From positions 1 through 28,894 of IMG/VR virus record IMGVR_UViG_3300006920_007197: 28,894 nt of DNA; one strand, 5' to 3'. Made by a program: the position numbers and the translations under genes. Numbering within the stretch: the first letter of the stretch is position 1; each line of letters opens with the position of its first letter. Of the stretch, positions 13,384 to 28,791 are shown one piece after another. The notes beneath the pieces are model-generated. The model ran no database searches and was not told the DNA's origin. It saw only the letters and a list, made by a program, of their open reading frames with translations. Origin of the DNA: a virus.

Positions 13384-14304
13384 CTAAAGCTGTGGCACCA
13401 CAAGGATCTCGAACTTGCCTTTCAGTTCGTTATCCACGGTCACGCCGCCTTCATCAATGCGCTCACGGGTCATTAACTTGAGTGCGACGTCTTCAAGAGA
13501 AGCTGGGATCACCAACAAATTGGGGCGAATCTTGAGCTTCTTACCGCCATCGCTGGTAAAAGCTTGCATGGCTTTGTAAGCGCTCCATAGGTTGGTGGCA
13601 TTGAGAGTACGCTTGTTGGCGAAGGCCATTTGCCAGAAGCCAAAGCCCGCTTCACAGCGCATATCGGTACCGAACTGGAACTCGTTATTGGTCCAAACTG
13701 CAGGGTCAGTTGGATTAAACAGGGTGTTTAAATCCAGCTTGCGACGCTCTTGGAAGATGAGTGGCTTTAATGGGCGCGTGGTATCGAGCAAAAACCAAGA
13801 TTCCCCCGTATAAGCGCCATCAACCACCATGTTGGCCACCGATACGTCAGCACCCGTACCATCGTGCTTCTCGTTAACGGGATGGTCAGTGTCAAAAAAG
13901 TTCTGCCCGTCATAACACAAAGTGCCAAAGCCTTCGGCTAATAGCTCGAACACCAAGTCGTCGGGAAACTCTTCACCTTCCTGTGCCAATGCTTGCACCA
14001 TAGGTTTGTAAATCCCTAAAGTGTCATCTTCCACATCATCACGACTGATACCTATGGTGGTTTCAAAGGTACGGTTAGTGATTGAATAACCATGCTCTTT
14101 GATGGAGTTGATCACCCGCGCACCAATCCATTCGCGCATGGTCGGCATTGAACCTAACCAGCCGTAGGTATTGGACTTAGTATTGCTTGGCACGACTGAG
14201 GCAATTTTTAAATACAGTGGCTCAGTCTTAGCTAAAGCATTTTGAAACTCGCTACGCACCATAGTGCGCAGGGCTTGTAATACTGGGGCGTTAATAGCAG
14301 CCAT
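13384..14304 (-). CDS. Major capsid protein, Mu gpT-like
   Basis: A 306-aa HK97-fold capsid subunit. The sequence follows the Mu gpT family closely: M-V-R-S-E-F-Q-N-A-L near the N-terminus, then Y-G-W-L-G-S-M-P-T-M-R-E-W and the R-T-F-E-T-T-I-G-I-S-R-D-D-V-E-D-D region (about residues 47-95), and F-F-D-T-D-H-P-V near residue 141. The length is normal. The start overlaps the protease/scaffold stop by one base (TAATG). It is preceded by scaffold and followed by a stable hairpin. Confidence 0.95.
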   Translation of the reverse strand: MAAINAPVLQALRTMVRSEFQNALAKTEPLYLKIASVVPSNTKSNTYGWLGSMPTMREWIGARVINSIKEHGYSITNRTFETTIGISRDDVEDDTLGIYKPMVQALAQEGEEFPDDLVFELLAEGFGTLCYDGQNFFDTDHPVNEKHDGTGADVSVANMVVDGAYTGESWFLLDTTRPLKPLIFQERRKLDLNTLFNPTDPAVWTNNEFQFGTDMRCEAGFGFWQMAFANKRTLNATNLWSAYKAMQAFTSDGGKKLKIRPNLLVIPASLEDVALKLMTRERIDEGGVTVDNELKGKFEILVVPQL

Positions 14305-14870
14305 TATTTGTGCTCCTGATCAGCGGCGATAGCTTTAGCAAAGTCAGCTTGTGACATGCCCCAAGAATCGGCCATTTTGATTTGGTCGGCAGTCAGTGCC
14401 GCGAGTTTGGTTTCCTTGTCCTTGATAGGATCGGGAACTGTGGTGGTTTGCTTGGCCGTTAATGCGGCAATAGCCACACGCTCACCCAAGTTGGCTGTAA
14501 GCGCCGCCATGGATTGCTGGCCTAACTTGGTTAGGTAATCACGTTCACACTCAAAGGCTTTGCCTTCGTCTATCGCCGCCTTCACGGTTTGCTCAACGGT
14601 AAGCACGCCGTTTTCAGCAGTTAGCGCCACCAGCTGCGCGCGCAGTGCAGCGACCGTGGCCGCTGGAACGTATTGGCTTAGATCAACCGAGGGCGATGTA
14701 GCACTCAGCGCGGTAAGCTGTTGCTTTAAGCCATCAACGCTATTTGCTGCTGTGGTTAGCGTATTAAGTGCAGATAGCGCCGCGACCTCTTGCTCAGCGG
14801 TTAAAGCTGTCACGTCATCTGGAATTTCAACGCCCAAGGCGGCTAAAATTTTTCTCAGTAATGGGTTCAC
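14304..14870 (-). CDS. Nested capsid scaffold (Mu gpZ-like), internal start in the protease gene
   Basis: Codon 203 of the protease gene is GTG at 14868-14870, preceded by a clear GGAGG at 14879-14883 with an eight-base spacer. Initiation here gives a 188-aa product lacking the protease domain. This mirrors Mu gene Z, which makes scaffold from the 3' half of gene I. The product begins V-N-P-L-L-R-K-I-L and is Ala/Thr/Leu-rich and helical, as expected of a scaffold. A second out-of-frame ATG overlaps the same site but leads straight to a stop. Use of this start is inferred from the ribosome site and the Mu precedent. Confidence 0.7.
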   Translation of the reverse strand: MNPLLRKILAALGVEIPDDVTALTAEQEVAALSALNTLTTAANSVDGLKQQLTALSATSPSVDLSQYVPAATVAALRAQLVALTAENGVLTVEQTVKAAIDEGKAFECERDYLTKLGQQSMAALTANLGERVAIAALTAKQTTTVPDPIKDKETKLAALTADQIKMADSWGMSQADFAKAIAADQEHK

Positions 14871-15476
14871 ATGGAGTTCCTCCGTGTCGGTAGATTGGAT
14901 AGGTTCGTATGGATTGAGGCTTGTATTAAGAGCAGCCAGTGCAGCCAACGATGCGAGTGGCAACATGCCATCGACACCAGGGCGGTTAGTTAACGCGGCT
15001 GAGTGGATAAATTGCGGGCGGCCAGTGCTGGTGTCGTAACCGAACACTAGGCTGAAGTACTTGTATTCTTTGGCAGTGAGATAAGCGATGGCGTTATCGG
15101 TAAAGCGCGGCTTAATAAACAAGCCCTGCCCCTGTCGATATTGCACGTCATCGATGTTGAACCAACCCGCAGCGGGTGCAGGCTGGCCATTCTTCTCTTT
15201 GTTGAGGGTTTGGTGTTCGTAGTCAATAACCAGATCACCGGCTTTATGGGGGGTGTTTGCTCGCAGGGCCGCGAACGCAACGCTATCCATCAACCACTTG
15301 CCACCAGCTACATCATCAGGGCGACCATCGACGGCAGCAAAGTGGCCATCAGGCAGCGCCTGAATGTAGCCATCTTCACCGAACAGAACGCCCGTGGTGT
15401 TTGGGTTAATCGCTATGGTACTACTAAGCGCAGCAACACCAATGGCAATAGAGGTTTGGTTTTTGGACTTAGACAC
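14304..15476 (-). CDS. Prohead protease with scaffold domain, Mu gpI-like
   Basis: A 390-aa protein. The N-terminal about 190 residues are the Mu I protease domain: L-P-D-G-H-F, V-D-G-R-P, I-D-Y-E-H-Q-T-L (about 83-90), P-A-A-G-W and Y-K-Y-F-S-L-V-F-G-Y-D (about 136-146), then A-A-L-T-N-R-P-G. The C-terminal half is the helical scaffold. It starts with GTG, with GAGAG seven bases upstream, and has no in-frame ATG nearby. It should cleave scaffold and capsid precursors during head maturation. The accessory island lies immediately upstream, so its original promoter spacing may have changed. Confidence 0.92.
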   Translation of the reverse strand: MSKSKNQTSIAIGVAALSSTIAINPNTTGVLFGEDGYIQALPDGHFAAVDGRPDDVAGGKWLMDSVAFAALRANTPHKAGDLVIDYEHQTLNKEKNGQPAPAAGWFNIDDVQYRQGQGLFIKPRFTDNAIAYLTAKEYKYFSLVFGYDTSTGRPQFIHSAALTNRPGVDGMLPLASLAALAALNTSLNPYEPIQSTDTEELHVNPLLRKILAALGVEIPDDVTALTAEQEVAALSALNTLTTAANSVDGLKQQLTALSATSPSVDLSQYVPAATVAALRAQLVALTAENGVLTVEQTVKAAIDEGKAFECERDYLTKLGQQSMAALTANLGERVAIAALTAKQTTTVPDPIKDKETKLAALTADQIKMADSWGMSQADFAKAIAADQEHK

Positions 15477-15521: not shown

Positions 15522-15530
15522 AGCTAACTA
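15522..15530 (+). repeat. 9-bp direct repeat, left border of accessory island
   Basis: AGCTAACTA here recurs exactly at 19958-19966. The two copies bracket the whole kinase/phosphatase/PutAbiC segment and touch phage backbone on their outer sides. It could be a target duplication or a short-homology junction. Confidence 0.55.
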
Positions 15531-15555
15531 GCGGATTGGAAAGGTTTCGGGATTA
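15530..15555 (+). repeat. 26-bp repeat, copy 1 (between gene I and the kinase operon)
   Basis: An exact 26-bp match with 27978-28003, beginning AGCGGATTGGAAAG and ending TTTCGGGATTA. The last three bases are the TAA stop of the downstream kinase on the minus strand. It contains the dyad GAAA-GG-TTTC and two GGATT half-sites. See the findings for competing explanations. Confidence 0.75.
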
Positions 15556-16623
15556 TTTGATACGTACAACAGGCAAAGCTCGATCAGCTCCACCTCCTGT
15601 ATAACAAGAAAACATTACACGCTCTCCAGCAACCGGCTTATCACCATAAATACAGTTATTATGGTAAAAAACATTTGGCTCGTCCGGGCGTTGAATGAAT
15701 CCAAAAAAACTGTTTCTTGGAGTTTCAAGCGTACCAATATAACGCTTTGCTATTGGGTAGCATAACTCACTACATTTCTGAACTATCTGGTCTGCAGTAG
15801 GCCTATTCTTGGGCTCCAAAACTAAACAACTTGATATTATTTCAATTAATTGGTTAGATAAATAATTAAATTGGGGGTTACGGGTAATAAATGCAGGAAA
15901 GTCATCATATTTTGCAGTGACAATTTTACCTACTGCTTTTAACCCTGAACCAAATGGTCTATGCCCAGAGAGTAATTCATACATCATCGCTCCTAGTGAC
16001 CAAATATCTGTTTCTAACCCAACGTTTCTAGGGGTTTCAATCGCCTCTGGAGACATATATGGCAATGCACCAACTGCTGTAGCAGATGCACTAATACTAT
16101 CTTCTCCACCTTCAACTGCATCCACAATTTCAGAACCAGCCATTTTAGCAATACCAAAATCTGTAATCTTAATTTCTTGCAATTGAAAGTCACCAACTAC
16201 CATAATGTTAGTAGGTTTTAAATCTCTATGAACAACATCAACATGATGTGAAGCTGCAATTCCCTTAGCTAAATGGTGAAAAATTCTTGCTACTAAAAAA
16301 GGGTCTAAATAATATGTCTTATCAAGGATAGATTTTGTCAAATCCTTTCCTACAATTAGCTCTTCAATAAGATAATATTTCCCCCCCTCCTCTATATAGT
16401 CTAATGTCTTAGCAACATTAGGATGGTTGACTTTAGCAGAAACAACTGCGCTACGATGAAATCTCTTTTCCGCAGATGGATTCTTAGGTGTTTTAAGCGC
16501 AACATATCTATTTAACAAAGTATCCTTAGCTTTATAGACATACTGCATTCCTCCTTCACCTACAAATCCTTCTATACAATACCGAGTGCCAATTACATCC
16601 TGTAAATGATGTGGTCCTTTCAT
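15553..16623 (-). CDS. Hanks-type Ser/Thr kinase with C-terminal cold-shock-like domain
   Basis: A 356-aa protein, the last gene of the phosphatase-kinase-kinase operon. The kinase domain (about residues 12-290) has G22-E-G-G-M-Q-Y-V-Y, beta-3 lysine K44, H132-R-D-L-K-P-T-N and D155-F-G. Where PknB-type kinases have the helix-C glutamate (R-F-R-R-E), this one reads R-F-H-R-S, so Ser58 replaces it and activity may need a partner or be reduced. Residues about 296-356 look like a cold-shock OB fold, with F306-F-G-F-I and V318-F-Y-H in the RNP1/RNP2 positions, suggesting nucleic-acid sensing. No membrane segment. Its ATG overlaps the upstream kinase stop by four bases. The DNA is AT-rich compared with the phage genes. 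Confidence 0.88.
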   Translation of the reverse strand: MKGPHHLQDVIGTRYCIEGFVGEGGMQYVYKAKDTLLNRYVALKTPKNPSAEKRFHRSAVVSAKVNHPNVAKTLDYIEEGGKYYLIEELIVGKDLTKSILDKTYYLDPFLVARIFHHLAKGIAASHHVDVVHRDLKPTNIMVVGDFQLQEIKITDFGIAKMAGSEIVDAVEGGEDSISASATAVGALPYMSPEAIETPRNVGLETDIWSLGAMMYELLSGHRPFGSGLKAVGKIVTAKYDDFPAFITRNPQFNYLSNQLIEIISSCLVLEPKNRPTADQIVQKCSELCYPIAKRYIGTLETPRNSFFGFIQRPDEPNVFYHNNCIYGDKPVAGERVMFSCYTGGGADRALPVVRIK

Positions 16624-17693
16624 AGTGCAACCTCAGGGTTAGAAACATCAAATGTTATAAAGCTTCTTTCATAATATGGTCGATGAAGTCCACCTATGCC
16701 GACAACACAAGCTCCGGGGATTTCAGTATTGGATGTTACACTGTTATTGTTTAAATATACTTCCCCGAACACATTTTCTAACACAAATGAATATCCATTA
16801 TAAATAAGATCAAAACTACCTACATTAGATAAGTTTAATGATACTTTACGCGAACTATTATTTAAAATATGGCTTGAACCATTAAGGACCGCAATTGCTT
16901 GATGTTTGTTATAATTTAAGACTTTCGCAATGCAATCACGTACCACTTGTATTTTAGGTCTCAAATTTGGCGTAAAATTCAAACAAGAATATAAAATCGC
17001 TTTTAATTCAGGGTAAGGATCTAATTCCTTACAATTAAAAATATCCGGTTTAATAGGTACAAGTGGTGGTAAAACAACATTTCTGAAAAGAAACAATACT
17101 GTTAATGCAAATGAATACACATCTACTGCAGATGTAAATTTTACTTCTTTTGTTGGATCATATATGTGTTGTTCTGGTGCTGCAAAAACTGGAGTTCCTT
17201 TAAATCCCATAGTCTTAGCACTTACTCCATCGTTTCGAGAAAGACCAAAATCGAATATCTTCAAAATCCCTTCAGAGTCTACTTTTATATTATTCGGTTT
17301 AATATCTCGGTGAATTACACCTGCAGCATGTATATCTGAAATACCACTAGCCATTTGCCATATTAAATAAAATAAATATTCAGAACCTTTTGAGATAAAA
17401 CATGTACGTTCAGTTAAGTCTTTACCACTAACATACTCCATGACAATACCAAAAGATGACTCAGGATTTACAATATCATAAACCTGAACAACATGTTTTG
17501 ACCTTAACTTTAGTAAAGCGGCTATTTCATCTTTTAATCGTGCAAGCTCCGATAAGTCCTGTATTGTTTTAATCGCAACTTTTCGATCTAAGTTATTATC
17601 AGAATAAAATAGCACATCACCGAAGCCACCGCTTGAACCATCGTTTAAGAAAGTATACCTTAATGAAATTTCATCCATATTATTATCACTCAA
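16620..17693 (-). CDS. Hanks-type Ser/Thr kinase with C-terminal beta-rich (degenerate FHA-like) domain
   Basis: A 357-aa protein, the middle gene of the operon. Every catalytic kinase element is present: glycine loop G19-S-S-G-G-F-G, K42, helix-C E56, H128-R-D-I-K-P-N-N, D148-F-G and A172-P-E. T161 and T167 in the activation segment are candidate autophosphorylation sites. Residues about 268-357 are strand-rich and end F-I-T-F-D-V-S-N-P-E-V, recalling a degenerate FHA domain, a phosphothreonine reader; this is a weak call. No membrane segment, so it is cytosolic, unlike PknB. It overlaps the phosphatase by eight bases and the second kinase by four, so expression of the three is coupled. It is AT-rich. 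Confidence 0.9.
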   Translation of the reverse strand: MSDNNMDEISLRYTFLNDGSSGGFGDVLFYSDNNLDRKVAIKTIQDLSELARLKDEIAALLKLRSKHVVQVYDIVNPESSFGIVMEYVSGKDLTERTCFISKGSEYLFYLIWQMASGISDIHAAGVIHRDIKPNNIKVDSEGILKIFDFGLSRNDGVSAKTMGFKGTPVFAAPEQHIYDPTKEVKFTSAVDVYSFALTVLFLFRNVVLPPLVPIKPDIFNCKELDPYPELKAILYSCLNFTPNLRPKIQVVRDCIAKVLNYNKHQAIAVLNGSSHILNNSSRKVSLNLSNVGSFDLIYNGYSFVLENVFGEVYLNNNSVTSNTEIPGACVVGIGGLHRPYYERSFITFDVSNPEVAL

Positions 17694-18771
17694 AATCGAT
17701 CCTTAATTGAGGTTTAAGTACTACTTCATCCTCACCATCTTTTTCATCAACATTCTTTATTACAGTTTTTTTTCGGAAAATTCTTCTTTTTACTTTTCCT
17801 GTTAGTGGCTTTACCTCTTCATCTTTATCTAAAGCATTGTCATTCTCAGTGTTATTTTTAACTATTCTACGTCTGAGTTTTTTTCTAGTCGGTGCTGTGA
17901 TGCCAATTAATTGTATTTCACCAAAAGAATCCCAAACTTTAATAGTACCTGTTGGGATAATTGACTTCTCATCAGGTACACTTAGAAGCCCCCATAAATC
18001 ATTGATAACCATAACTGTTGAGTTATCATATCCACCGCACCACTTAGAAATATGAACAATTCTTTTGCAAAGCTCTAGCGCAGGTAATTTCTGCTGGAAA
18101 ATTTGTTTGAACGTACCACTTTCAATATAGTGTGCACCATCTGAAGTTAAGACTAACTGAGTAATATCTTCAACATTTGGAAAGCTTAAGATATGGGGCT
18201 CAATTTCCGGCCCAACTCCTACAAATTGTAATAAACGATTACCAAAATGAGATTCTGCCGCCCCCTCATATTGTCCAGCTAAAGTATCATCCTTAGAATA
18301 TTGTCTAATGTTCTGACCATGATTAGCATATATTCGACTATCACCAACATTTATTGCTTCAAACGCACCATCACTATCACATATAAAAGCAGATAAAGTT
18401 GCCCCACCCTCACCTTCAAACTTTAGATAGACCTCTGCATTTGCATCTTCCACAGCATTAATTAATCTAGTAGCAACAGGTAGCTGTCTATTTCTTATAC
18501 AGCTACTTACGAATGATGCAACACTTATGTTTGCGCACTCAGCACCAGCAACCATACCTCCCATGCCATCACATACAACACCAATGACAAAAGATTTTGA
18601 AACAGACATTTGGACCTGAACAAAGATCGCTCTATCCTGATTTTCATTCCTTACACTGCCGATATCCGAACCAATTGCCACCGAAGAGTCAAACAGCTCT
18701 TTCACACCACTATTTCCAACCCTTCTAGATAACCATAACTGGATATGTTCTCTAATAGCATCCTGTTCCAT
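17686..18771 (-). CDS. PP2C-family Ser/Thr protein phosphatase
   Basis: A 361-aa protein, the first gene of the operon, expected to reverse the action of the two kinases. Metal-binding and catalytic PP2C motifs are intact: G34-S-D-I-G-S-V-R-N-E-N-Q-D46, V66-C-D68-G-M-G-G, G123-A-T, G143-D-S-R, S210-D-G and D249-N-S-T. A 69-residue C-terminal tail (293-361) is very basic, then acidic, and contains two related patches, K-L-R-R-R-I-V-K-N and V-K-R-R-I-F-R-K-K, possibly for nucleic-acid or partner binding. No membrane segment. The gene is AT-rich, with a weak ribosome site. The closest known associations are bacterial phosphatase-kinase pairs such as those of type VI secretion or TerY triads, but no vWA or secretion gene is present. 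Confidence 0.92.
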   Translation of the reverse strand: MEQDAIREHIQLWLSRRVGNSGVKELFDSSVAIGSDIGSVRNENQDRAIFVQVQMSVSKSFVIGVVCDGMGGMVAGAECANISVASFVSSCIRNRQLPVATRLINAVEDANAEVYLKFEGEGGATLSAFICDSDGAFEAINVGDSRIYANHGQNIRQYSKDDTLAGQYEGAAESHFGNRLLQFVGVGPEIEPHILSFPNVEDITQLVLTSDGAHYIESGTFKQIFQQKLPALELCKRIVHISKWCGGYDNSTVMVINDLWGLLSVPDEKSIIPTGTIKVWDSFGEIQLIGITAPTRKKLRRRIVKNNTENDNALDKDEEVKPLTGKVKRRIFRKKTVIKNVDEKDGEDEVVLKPQLRIDFE

Positions 18772-18836
18772 AGAATTTTCTTTCTAGAAGCCCATAAAAA
18801 GTATCATCTAACAAATATACCGTAAGAATTAAATTT

Positions 18837-18866
18837 TTGATATACAAACACAAGTAAGCATATAAA
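18837..18866 (+). promoter_or_regulatory. Candidate sigma-70 promoter for the PutAbiC-like gene
   Basis: TTGATA, 18-bp spacer, TATAAA. Transcription from about 18873 would give a leader of about 190 nt that includes the 16-bp operator-like repeats. Confidence 0.4.
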
Positions 18867-18926
18867 TATCAAGTTACAGTCAGCCTAACTCCAACGTGAT
18901 TTAGTTTAAAACCCGTTTAAATCCTT

Positions 18927-19065: not shown

Positions 19066-19938
19066 ATGACCACCCCTTCTACATCGCCTCAAGCAGGACA
19101 GCAGACTCAAACCCACGAATCCGACACATCATTTAGGTGGCTTGTCATTTTGCTAGCCATTATTGCAGTCAGTTTACTTGGTTTGTACTTTATGAATTTC
19201 AACGGGGGCTGGGGTAACCAAGGCGACTTTGGTGCCTTTGGTGACTTTCTCGGTGGCGTGCTCAACCCTATCTTAGGCTTTGCAACAGTGGGCTTACTCA
19301 TCTGGTCGCTTAAGATGCAAATGAAAGAGCTGTCACTATCTAATCAGCAACTCGCTTTAACTCGACAAGAGTTGAAAGAGACTAAAGAAGAAACAGCACT
19401 GAGTCGTAAAGCAATGGAGGAACAAGTCAACCACCTGCAAAATGAAGCTAAGCTAAACGAATTAATAAGATTGATGGCGGTAGTAAAAATCAAATGTGAC
19501 GACATGCTTAACTCTAAAGTAACAGAACGAGAGCTATCTTTTGGCCTACTTCACTTTAAACAAGAACGTTCTTATGGTAGATACAATCCATCCATAACAA
19601 AACGGACCTACCGAGATGTCATATACATTTATATTCCAAGTAAATTGGGCGAACTATATGACGATCTTATTCCATTGTTACAGAGACAATATAACGAGCT
19701 TAATAGTTCATGGAAGGAACTAGAAGAGTTATTGTGTCTGTATACTCGGCTAGCTTTGAGATACTACGATATTAATAAGAGCACTGAATTTGCAGCTGTG
19801 TACATGAAAGAAGCTGGAGAGATGCTAATACCATTTCATAATATTTTTCAAACAGATAAAACAACACTACTTCACAAAGTAATACGTGCAAACAGTATTT
19901 CGATGTCATCAACGTTGTATGAAGACTTAGATGATTAA
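19066..19938 (+). CDS. PutAbiC-like phage abortive infection membrane protein
   Basis: A 290-aa protein on the plus strand, opposed to every phage gene around it. Two membrane helices lie at about residues 24-45 and 62-81, followed by a charged coiled coil (82-125) and a soluble C-terminal domain. The linker G53-D-F-G-A-F-G-D-F-L-G-G-V-L-N-P-I and the following K-x-Q-x-x-E-L...R-Q-E-L-K-E-T are the signature I associate with the putative abortive infection family PF16872. The ATG at 19066 is chosen because the hydrophobic helix then starts about 24 residues in; the ribosome site is weak. Its end lies 17 bp from the end of the convergent G-like gene. It may cause membrane damage on infection by other phages; this is inferred from the family. 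Confidence 0.82.
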   Translation: MTTPSTSPQAGQQTQTHESDTSFRWLVILLAIIAVSLLGLYFMNFNGGWGNQGDFGAFGDFLGGVLNPILGFATVGLLIWSLKMQMKELSLSNQQLALTRQELKETKEETALSRKAMEEQVNHLQNEAKLNELIRLMAVVKIKCDDMLNSKVTERELSFGLLHFKQERSYGRYNPSITKRTYRDVIYIYIPSKLGELYDDLIPLLQRQYNELNSSWKELEELLCLYTRLALRYYDINKSTEFAAVYMKEAGEMLIPFHNIFQTDKTTLLHKVIRANSISMSSTLYEDLDD

Positions 19939-19955
19939 TATTATTAATAGAAAAC

Positions 19956-20411
19956 TTAGCTAACTAAATATCCTCCAAAAATTCCTAACATAGATTGTTC
20001 ATCCTCACGGCTTACACCTAGGTATGGGCGTGCCGGAATCCCCGCAGGGCCAGCGGGCATATCGTCGGTGCCGCCAAAATGGTGAATAGCGGCATAGATT
20101 TTATTGCTACCAATCGCCGCCCAAAAGTCACCGCTGTCGGCTGTTACGCTGGCAGCTAGCCCGCCAGCACTGGCCTGTAATATCTTACCGCCCTGGCGTT
20201 TAGGGTTGGCTTTAAGGTAGGCATCACTTAAGGATACCCAGGCTTGACCTGTTACGGGATCGGCCTCTGCTTCAAACGCAGATTCTGTGGCTGACTCTAG
20301 CACGGCAGCAATATCGTTCATGGGTTCGCTTAAGTCATCGAGCTTATTCAGCAAGCTATTAAGCACCTGCAATACTGTGCCGTTGGTAAACTGAATATCC
20401 ACTTTACTCAT
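19956..20411 (-). CDS. Virion morphogenesis protein, Mu gpG-like (gp31)
   Basis: A 151-aa protein of the phage virion morphogenesis family (PF05069), a head-tail joining or tail-completion factor. Recognisable features are F-x-x-E-A-D-P-V-T-G-Q-A-W near residues 47-59, then P-K-R-Q-G-G-K-I-L-Q, I-H-H-F-G-G, and the C-terminal I-P-A-R-P-Y-L-G-V-S. It follows the F-like gene after nine bases. Its TAA stop lies just outside the right 9-bp direct repeat, so the last codons may have been altered by the island insertion. Confidence 0.9.
   Translation of the reverse strand: MSKVDIQFTNGTVLQVLNSLLNKLDDLSEPMNDIAAVLESATESAFEAEADPVTGQAWVSLSDAYLKANPKRQGGKILQASAGGLAASVTADSGDFWAAIGSNKIYAAIHHFGGTDDMPAGPAGIPARPYLGVSREDEQSMLGIFGGYLVS
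19958..19966 (+). repeat. 9-bp direct repeat, right border of accessory island
   Basis: AGCTAACTA, identical to 15522-15530. It encodes the last residues and stop of the G-like protein on the minus strand (L-V-S-stop). Confidence 0.55.
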
Positions 20412-27977: not shown

Positions 27978-28003
27978 AGCGGATTGGAAAGGTTTCGGGA
28001 TTA
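27978..28003 (+). repeat. 26-bp repeat, copy 2 (between lysis operon and accessory gene)
   Basis: Identical over 26 bp to 15530-15555, with flanks that differ at once on both sides. It lies 13 bp outside the terminator stem and 60 bp before the accessory membrane gene. Confidence 0.75.
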
Positions 28004-28062: not shown

Positions 28063-28791
28063 ATGGATTCAACGGATAAAACGCTTAGGAATTTTCACAC
28101 TAAGATAGATGCTGATGTCGGTTTAAAATCAAAACGCCGCGCATTAATTGTAACGTCTATAGTCTTGATAATAATTAGCTGGACGGGAGCGACTCTAAAA
28201 GAGATTACTGGATTAGTTGCTAAAATTGAACTCACCAATACCGTTGCAATCAAATATTTGATAATGCTATCAATAGTTTACCTAATGTTTCGATATTTTG
28301 CTTATGCGAGAACATATCACCAGCAGTTACGCTCATTTTGGGTTAAACGATTTATGCAAGATAAAAGAGTTTTTCGCTACTATGTTGATCAAAACAATCT
28401 TCATGATGAGGATATTGATGGTTTACTCGGTAAGGCTCTAGATGTATGGGTTGGTGACGAACCAAGTGTACGATCCCTTGGGTACGAAAATCACGGATTC
28501 CCTTTTTTCGGAAGGAAAATAACCTATATAACAAGAGAGGGTTATAGCAGTGGGCATCCTGATGACCCCGATACTAGATATGAAGAGGTTGACTTTGTAA
28601 ATGAAATCATTCTCAACAAATTTACAGACAAATGGAAGATCGAAGACTTAATAAAACTCTTATCAATTGAATACGGATATGTGTTCAAAAGTTACACTCA
28701 CTATAGAGAGTACTTTGATTTAATGGGACCTTATTTTTTTGGAATTTTAGCGCTGTTATCGCCTATTGTTGCACCCAGGGCAACCGCATGA
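28063..28791 (+). CDS. Accessory membrane protein, unknown (moron)
   Basis: A 242-aa protein, on the strand opposite to the phage operon. Two membrane helices lie at about residues 28-44 and 62-79, a soluble, acidic middle domain spans about 95-215, and a third hydrophobic segment lies at 221-238. AAGGA lies about ten bases before the ATG. The segment after helix 2 (Y-F-A-Y-A-R-T-Y-H-Q-Q) is of a type seen in uncharacterised bacterial membrane proteins. No family was named. The AT-rich DNA, reverse orientation, own upstream region and 26-bp repeat beside it all suggest an acquired gene. Superinfection exclusion or defence is a guess. Confidence 0.8.
   Translation: MDSTDKTLRNFHTKIDADVGLKSKRRALIVTSIVLIIISWTGATLKEITGLVAKIELTNTVAIKYLIMLSIVYLMFRYFAYARTYHQQLRSFWVKRFMQDKRVFRYYVDQNNLHDEDIDGLLGKALDVWVGDEPSVRSLGYENHGFPFFGRKITYITREGYSSGHPDDPDTRYEEVDFVNEIILNKFTDKWKIEDLIKLLSIEYGYVFKSYTHYREYFDLMGPYFFGILALLSPIVAPRATA

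Follow-up and report, generated by a model that had tools for sequence, protein, structure and literature searches.

A phosphatase-kinase-kinase operon between the Mu G and I homologues

Three minus-strand open reading frames of 361, 357 and 356 aa lie at positions 18771-17686, 17693-16620 and 16623-15553 of a viral record of 28,894 bases, the whole of which is referred to here as the window. The genes are 1086, 1074 and 1071 bp long and overlap by 8 nt and by 4 nt (ATGA), respectively, and the same start/stop overlaps are kept in relatives. We named them pfpC, pfkB and pfkA after the kinase-kinase-phosphatase (KKP; PfpC-PfkB-PfkA) module, a tripartite toxin-antitoxin and anti-phage module (Guo et al. 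2024, PMC11341870). Pfam identified a Mu G homologue (19956-20411, PF05069) and a Mu I homologue (14304-15476, PF10123) on the two sides. The GC contents of the three genes were 0.373, 0.328 and 0.372, against 0.49-0.53 in the adjoining head genes and about 50% in the phage. The original prediction, made from the sequence, had described an intact PP2C phosphatase and two Ser/Thr kinases in overlapping genes, on DNA richer in AT than the phage backbone, splitting the Mu order G-I. The reading frames, Pfam matches, motifs, base composition (0.33-0.37 against about 0.50 in the flanking head genes) and flanking genes bore out each of these points, and the residues D130 and D134 that it singled out are the aspartates of the HRD motifs, in the first and the second kinase, respectively.

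PfpC (17686-18771, minus strand) matched PP2C_2 (PF13672) at E=2.4e-6 and phrog_17277 at E=5e-87 over residues 1-350. It has a basic C-terminal tail, and the motifs ENQDR, DGMGGM, SDGAH and GGxDN are intact; all metal-binding motifs are present. PfpC is the antitoxin in the KKP model (PMC11341870).

The second kinase, PfkA (15553-16623, minus strand), starts with ATG, matched Pkinase (PF00069) at E=3.5e-47 and contains GGM24, HRD132, DFG155 and GFI308. Its identity to relatives was 42-56%. Residues 290-356 (15556-15756, minus strand) form a cold-shock domain (CSD) with the GFI motif. This domain aligned with Shewanella CSDs in hhalign at 96% probability (E=1.7e-9), and its profile matched CspB structures at 1e-6 to 1e-5. 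The Pfam CSD match was weak on PfkA itself (E=0.01), and the best family member reached 2.2e-4. Foldseek searches with the whole kinase models returned matches to kinase domains only and were silent on the C-terminal domains. A search of 129 Shewanella genomes found no PfkA relative at E<=1e-40; PfkA is therefore rare in Shewanella, though the published W3-18-1 module shows that it occurs there.

The first kinase, PfkB (16620-17693, minus strand), starts with TTG and matched Pkinase (PF00069) at E=2.2e-34. HRD128 and DFG148 are intact, and the glycine loop reads GGF22 rather than GGM, as GGF does in several full-length relatives. PfkB was 37-44% identical to its relatives over the full length. 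The original prediction had assigned an extra domain to the second kinase; this was right for PfkA, but both kinases, not one, bear an additional C-terminal domain. In PfkB this is residues 262-357 (16623-16910, minus strand). No FHA domain was found on PfkB by Pfam or with a profile of four FHA sequences, which was too thin. An hhalign comparison with 31 sequences of FHA regions, taken from the same bacterial order, gave a score of 28.5 (E=1.1e-4), a score reached by none of 60 column-shuffled controls (maximum 14.6). One or two members of the 31-sequence profile were cut from short loci and are perhaps off frame, which would at most weaken the match. The domain was modelled as all-beta with pLDDT above 90. 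In the alignment, the NGTFVN segment of FHA faces GEVYLNN in PfkB, and the residues with which FHA domains usually bind phosphothreonine are not conserved in the PfkB family alignment. These results suggest a degenerate FHA-like domain, which is the weakest of the KKP features that we found in the trio. Since the residues for phosphothreonine binding lack conservation across the family, the domain may serve binding between the two kinases rather than phosphopeptide reading.

The exchangeable slot between G and I

The backbone of the carrier phage was about 95% identical over 11 kb to Shewanella phage vB_SspS_MuM16-1 (MZ568827). Homology to MuM16-1 and to other close relatives ended at 15555 and at about 18904, indicating that the exchanged piece consists of the KKP operon and its leader. 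MuM16-1 (PMC8541194) has the slot and the flanking membrane gene as in the carrier phage, but holds a type VI retron where the carrier phage has KKP. In Shewanella Mu-like loci (L010-L022, L091-L095 and L100), the equivalent of window positions 15530-18904 contained many different low-GC modules. These included the type VI retron (E=3e-96), AriA/AriB-like (PARIS-like) genes, PDC-M18A, a methylase with DUF6575, the caspase PDC-S65, the Mrr-nSTAND3 system PDC-S73, a KAP NTPase and several other gene sets. New defence or counter-defence systems may well be encoded by the many further low-GC genes in the slot.

The right edge of the slot is a 23-bp border element, TCCCGAAACCTTTCCAATCCGCT (15530-15552, minus strand), directly 3' of the pfkA stop codon. 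In MuM16-1 and in at least 12 other loci, it abuts or closely trails the final gene of the cargo, and it also occurs in L020 and L021 near 17390 and in L143 at 17443. Hairpins of varying sequence come after the element, and before I the preceding stop codon often directly abuts it. In Mu, boxes like CATAATCCCGCACCTGCC are present in the C-lys and G-I gaps, in which late promoters lie. In sequence and in position, TCCCGAAACCTTTCCAATCCGCT resembles a Mu late-promoter box, and we regard it as a putative late promoter. A second copy lies at 27978-28000, before the lysis genes. A plus-strand open reading frame of 242 aa (28063-28791), which lies upstream of the lysis region and just upstream of this second copy, had no Pfam or PADLOC match; it may be the cargo of a second slot.

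On the other side, an AT-rich leader (18772-18904, minus strand) runs from the conserved slot border to pfpC, and its sequence makes it a candidate for the operon's own promoter. As promoter-like sites were not in excess in a consensus scan, we only infer a promoter of the operon within these positions. Beside the slot lies a low-GC plus-strand gene (19066-19938) for a membrane/coiled-coil protein of the backbone, the homologue of MuM16-1 p31, with a variable C-terminal half and no Pfam match. We considered this gene as a fourth KKP component and rejected it, because the same gene adjoins G in loci with differing cargos (L010, L011, L012, L015, L017, L018, L094 and L095).

The slot was also recognised in Pseudomonas phage DMS3, where an anti-CRISPR gene and a wHTH gene lie between the G and I homologues. 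The anti-CRISPR cargo of Pseudomonas Mu-like phages has been described as plasticity region G (RGP G). RGP G shares the G-I position and the variable low-GC cargo with the Shewanella slot, but its cargo consists of counter-defence genes, in contrast to the defence modules of the Shewanella phages. In Mu and many distant relatives, the G-I gap is only 0.2-0.3 kb, and the annotated Mu gyrase cut site falls within it. On balance, we slightly favour the view that the G-I junction is a general, exchangeable locus for immunity cargo in Mu-like phages, carrying anti-phage modules in Shewanella and anti-CRISPRs in Pseudomonas, with a late-promoter-like box before I at its right border and its left border near the central gyrase site of Mu. 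Such borders would explain how cargo can be swapped without harm to the phage.

Relatives of the trio in phages and plasmids

The original prediction had proposed a search for the three-gene set in other prophages and in defence islands. We found homologous trios in 13 IMG/VR contigs, in a P2-like E. coli element and on rhizobial plasmids. The pfpC reading frame was truncated in one of the viral contigs (L178). The viral trios were found with alignment queries; scans of viral contigs with a single PfpC or PfkA sequence gave no matches. The P2 portal gene adjoined eight of the 13 viral trios (L171-L174 and L176-L179), and it also adjoined the trio on E. coli plasmid NZ_CP083887. Next to this portal-side position lies a hotspot of defence genes that has been reported for P2-like phages.

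Near-identical copies of the E. coli module were present in 14 of 5,426 complete E. coli genomes, and the window region itself had no match at the DNA level in E. coli genomes. The trio was also found in a Klebsiella phage and on plasmids of Xanthobacter and Rhizobiaceae. Its neighbours on these plasmids are Shedu, ABC-three-component or conjugation genes, with Shedu and ABC-three-component genes adjoining the rhizobial trios. Nine plasmids had a strong PfkB match, and every one of them was also among the plasmids matching PfpC. A location mainly beside type VI or housekeeping genes would have spoken against the original prediction. The relatives found are not distributed in this way, since neither vWA nor type VI genes lie beside the annotated examples.

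Two further loci depart from the three-gene arrangement. Planktothrix phage PaV-LD (L003, 6962-8916) encodes a phosphatase and one kinase, which stops before the FHA-like domain, and this pair is a reduced or different relative of KKP. In the E. coli NDM2 plasmid unnamed3 (L005, 613-1778), the phosphatase is annotated in two pieces and is apparently broken, with both kinase genes intact. This would be unexpected if the phosphatase is an antitoxin.

Proposed function, alternative readings and comparison with known systems

Four KKP modules from non-filamentous prophages have been tested, one each from a prophage of Shewanella, Vibrio, E. coli and Salmonella, and all four make E. coli K-12 resistant to T4 and to one or more of T1, T5 and T7 (PMC11341870). 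In KKP relatives, PfkA and PfkB are toxic only jointly, many host proteins are phosphorylated, and PfpC reverses this (PMC11341870). T4 Gp59 binds and inhibits PfpC of the E. coli module, which leaves the kinases free to halt growth and prevent phage production (PMC11341870). By analogy, the trio would be expressed in the lysogen, where PfpC would normally silence both kinases. A protein of a superinfecting phage would then inhibit PfpC and free the kinases, and joint phosphorylation of host proteins would arrest growth and stop phage production. A second role in tuning prophage induction, as in Pf6, is possible. The original prediction had placed two kinases under the restraint of a phosphatase, in a defence or lysogen-benefit system carried as prophage cargo. 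Its direction fits the experiments on KKP relatives (PMC11341870) and the defence content of the sibling slots, but the novelty that it implied did not hold, as KKP had been published in 2024 (PMC11341870).

The main rival reading is that KKP here mainly controls the lysogeny of its own or co-resident prophages by phosphorylating host silencers or phage regulators, with defence secondary. The Pf6 KKP governs Pf4/Pf6 induction through phosphorylation of MvaU and PfiA (PMC11341870), and the trio lies inside a prophage in the same reading direction as the late genes, both of which are consistent with such control. However, the slot of sibling phages holds unrelated defence modules, and plasmids that hold no prophage carry KKP too. 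Defence therefore fits better than regulation of the carrier phage, and we consider lysogeny control unlikely as the main function. KKP is swapped whole for other defence systems, which supports the view that defence is what KKP is selected for in Mu-like phages.

The trio might also be a decaying passenger that does nothing for the carrier phage, a reading in line with its low GC, its horizontal arrival and its rarity in Shewanella genomes. This reading agrees poorly with the three reading frames being all intact, with the full set of catalytic motifs, with start/stop overlaps as in relatives and with exact slot borders, and we judge it improbable. Gene pairs of a PP2C phosphatase and a Hanks kinase occur in TerY triads and type VI systems, so the trio might instead be a TerY-type phosphorylation triad or a type VI Ppk/Ppp cassette that moved into the phage. 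No vWA (TerY), ZnR or secretion gene was found in the window or annotated beside the examined relatives, the PADLOC matches were to generic kinases only, and the C-terminal domains are a CSD and an FHA-like domain. We rejected TerY or type VI identity on this neighbourhood and these domains, and we give this origin hardly any weight. The original prediction had likewise noted that no vWA, FHA-scaffold or secretion gene is near; the absence of vWA and secretion genes from the window stood, but the FHA part is doubtful, given the degenerate FHA-like domain on PfkB itself.

The reading as KKP agrees with the published definition of a PP2C gene followed by two kinase genes, each of 900-1300 bp (PMC11341870). 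The domains that define KKP are a CSD with a GFI/A motif on PfkA and an FHA domain on PfkB, and a GGM motif has been described for both kinases (PMC11341870). In the trio, a PP2C gene precedes two Pkinase genes on one strand, each gene within 900-1300 bp; HRD and DFG are present in both kinases, the catalytic PP2C motifs are present, and PfkA is fused to a CSD with GFI and PfkB to the degenerate domain. The likeness to the MPAO1 and W3-18-1 modules was established through family features rather than by direct alignment. We are highly confident that these three genes constitute a KKP module, which a Mu-like phage of Shewanella carries between G and I as cargo of benefit to the lysogen. Mu-like prophages were already among the reported KKP carriers (PMC11341870); the module is thus known, named and previously recorded in such prophages, and it is not a new system. 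The modest additions made here are the degeneracy of the FHA-like domain, the precise limits of the slot and the mixture of defence modules between G and I.

PADLOC v2.0.0 (2023) is older than the KKP publication. Its matches of the trio to PD-T4-6, Mad6 and Stk2 were rejected as generic kinase-domain matches. Stk2 of Staphylococcus is likewise a Hanks-type kinase acting against phages, but it is a single gene without a phosphatase partner, and the first kinase matches it weakly (E=1e-12). The published KKP modules (PMC11341870) are like the trio in gene order, gene lengths, HRD and DFG motifs, the CSD with GFI, the FHA-like domain and residence in temperate phages, including Mu-like ones; the trio differs from them in the GGF glycine loop of PfkB, in place of GGM, and in the degeneracy of its FHA-like domain.
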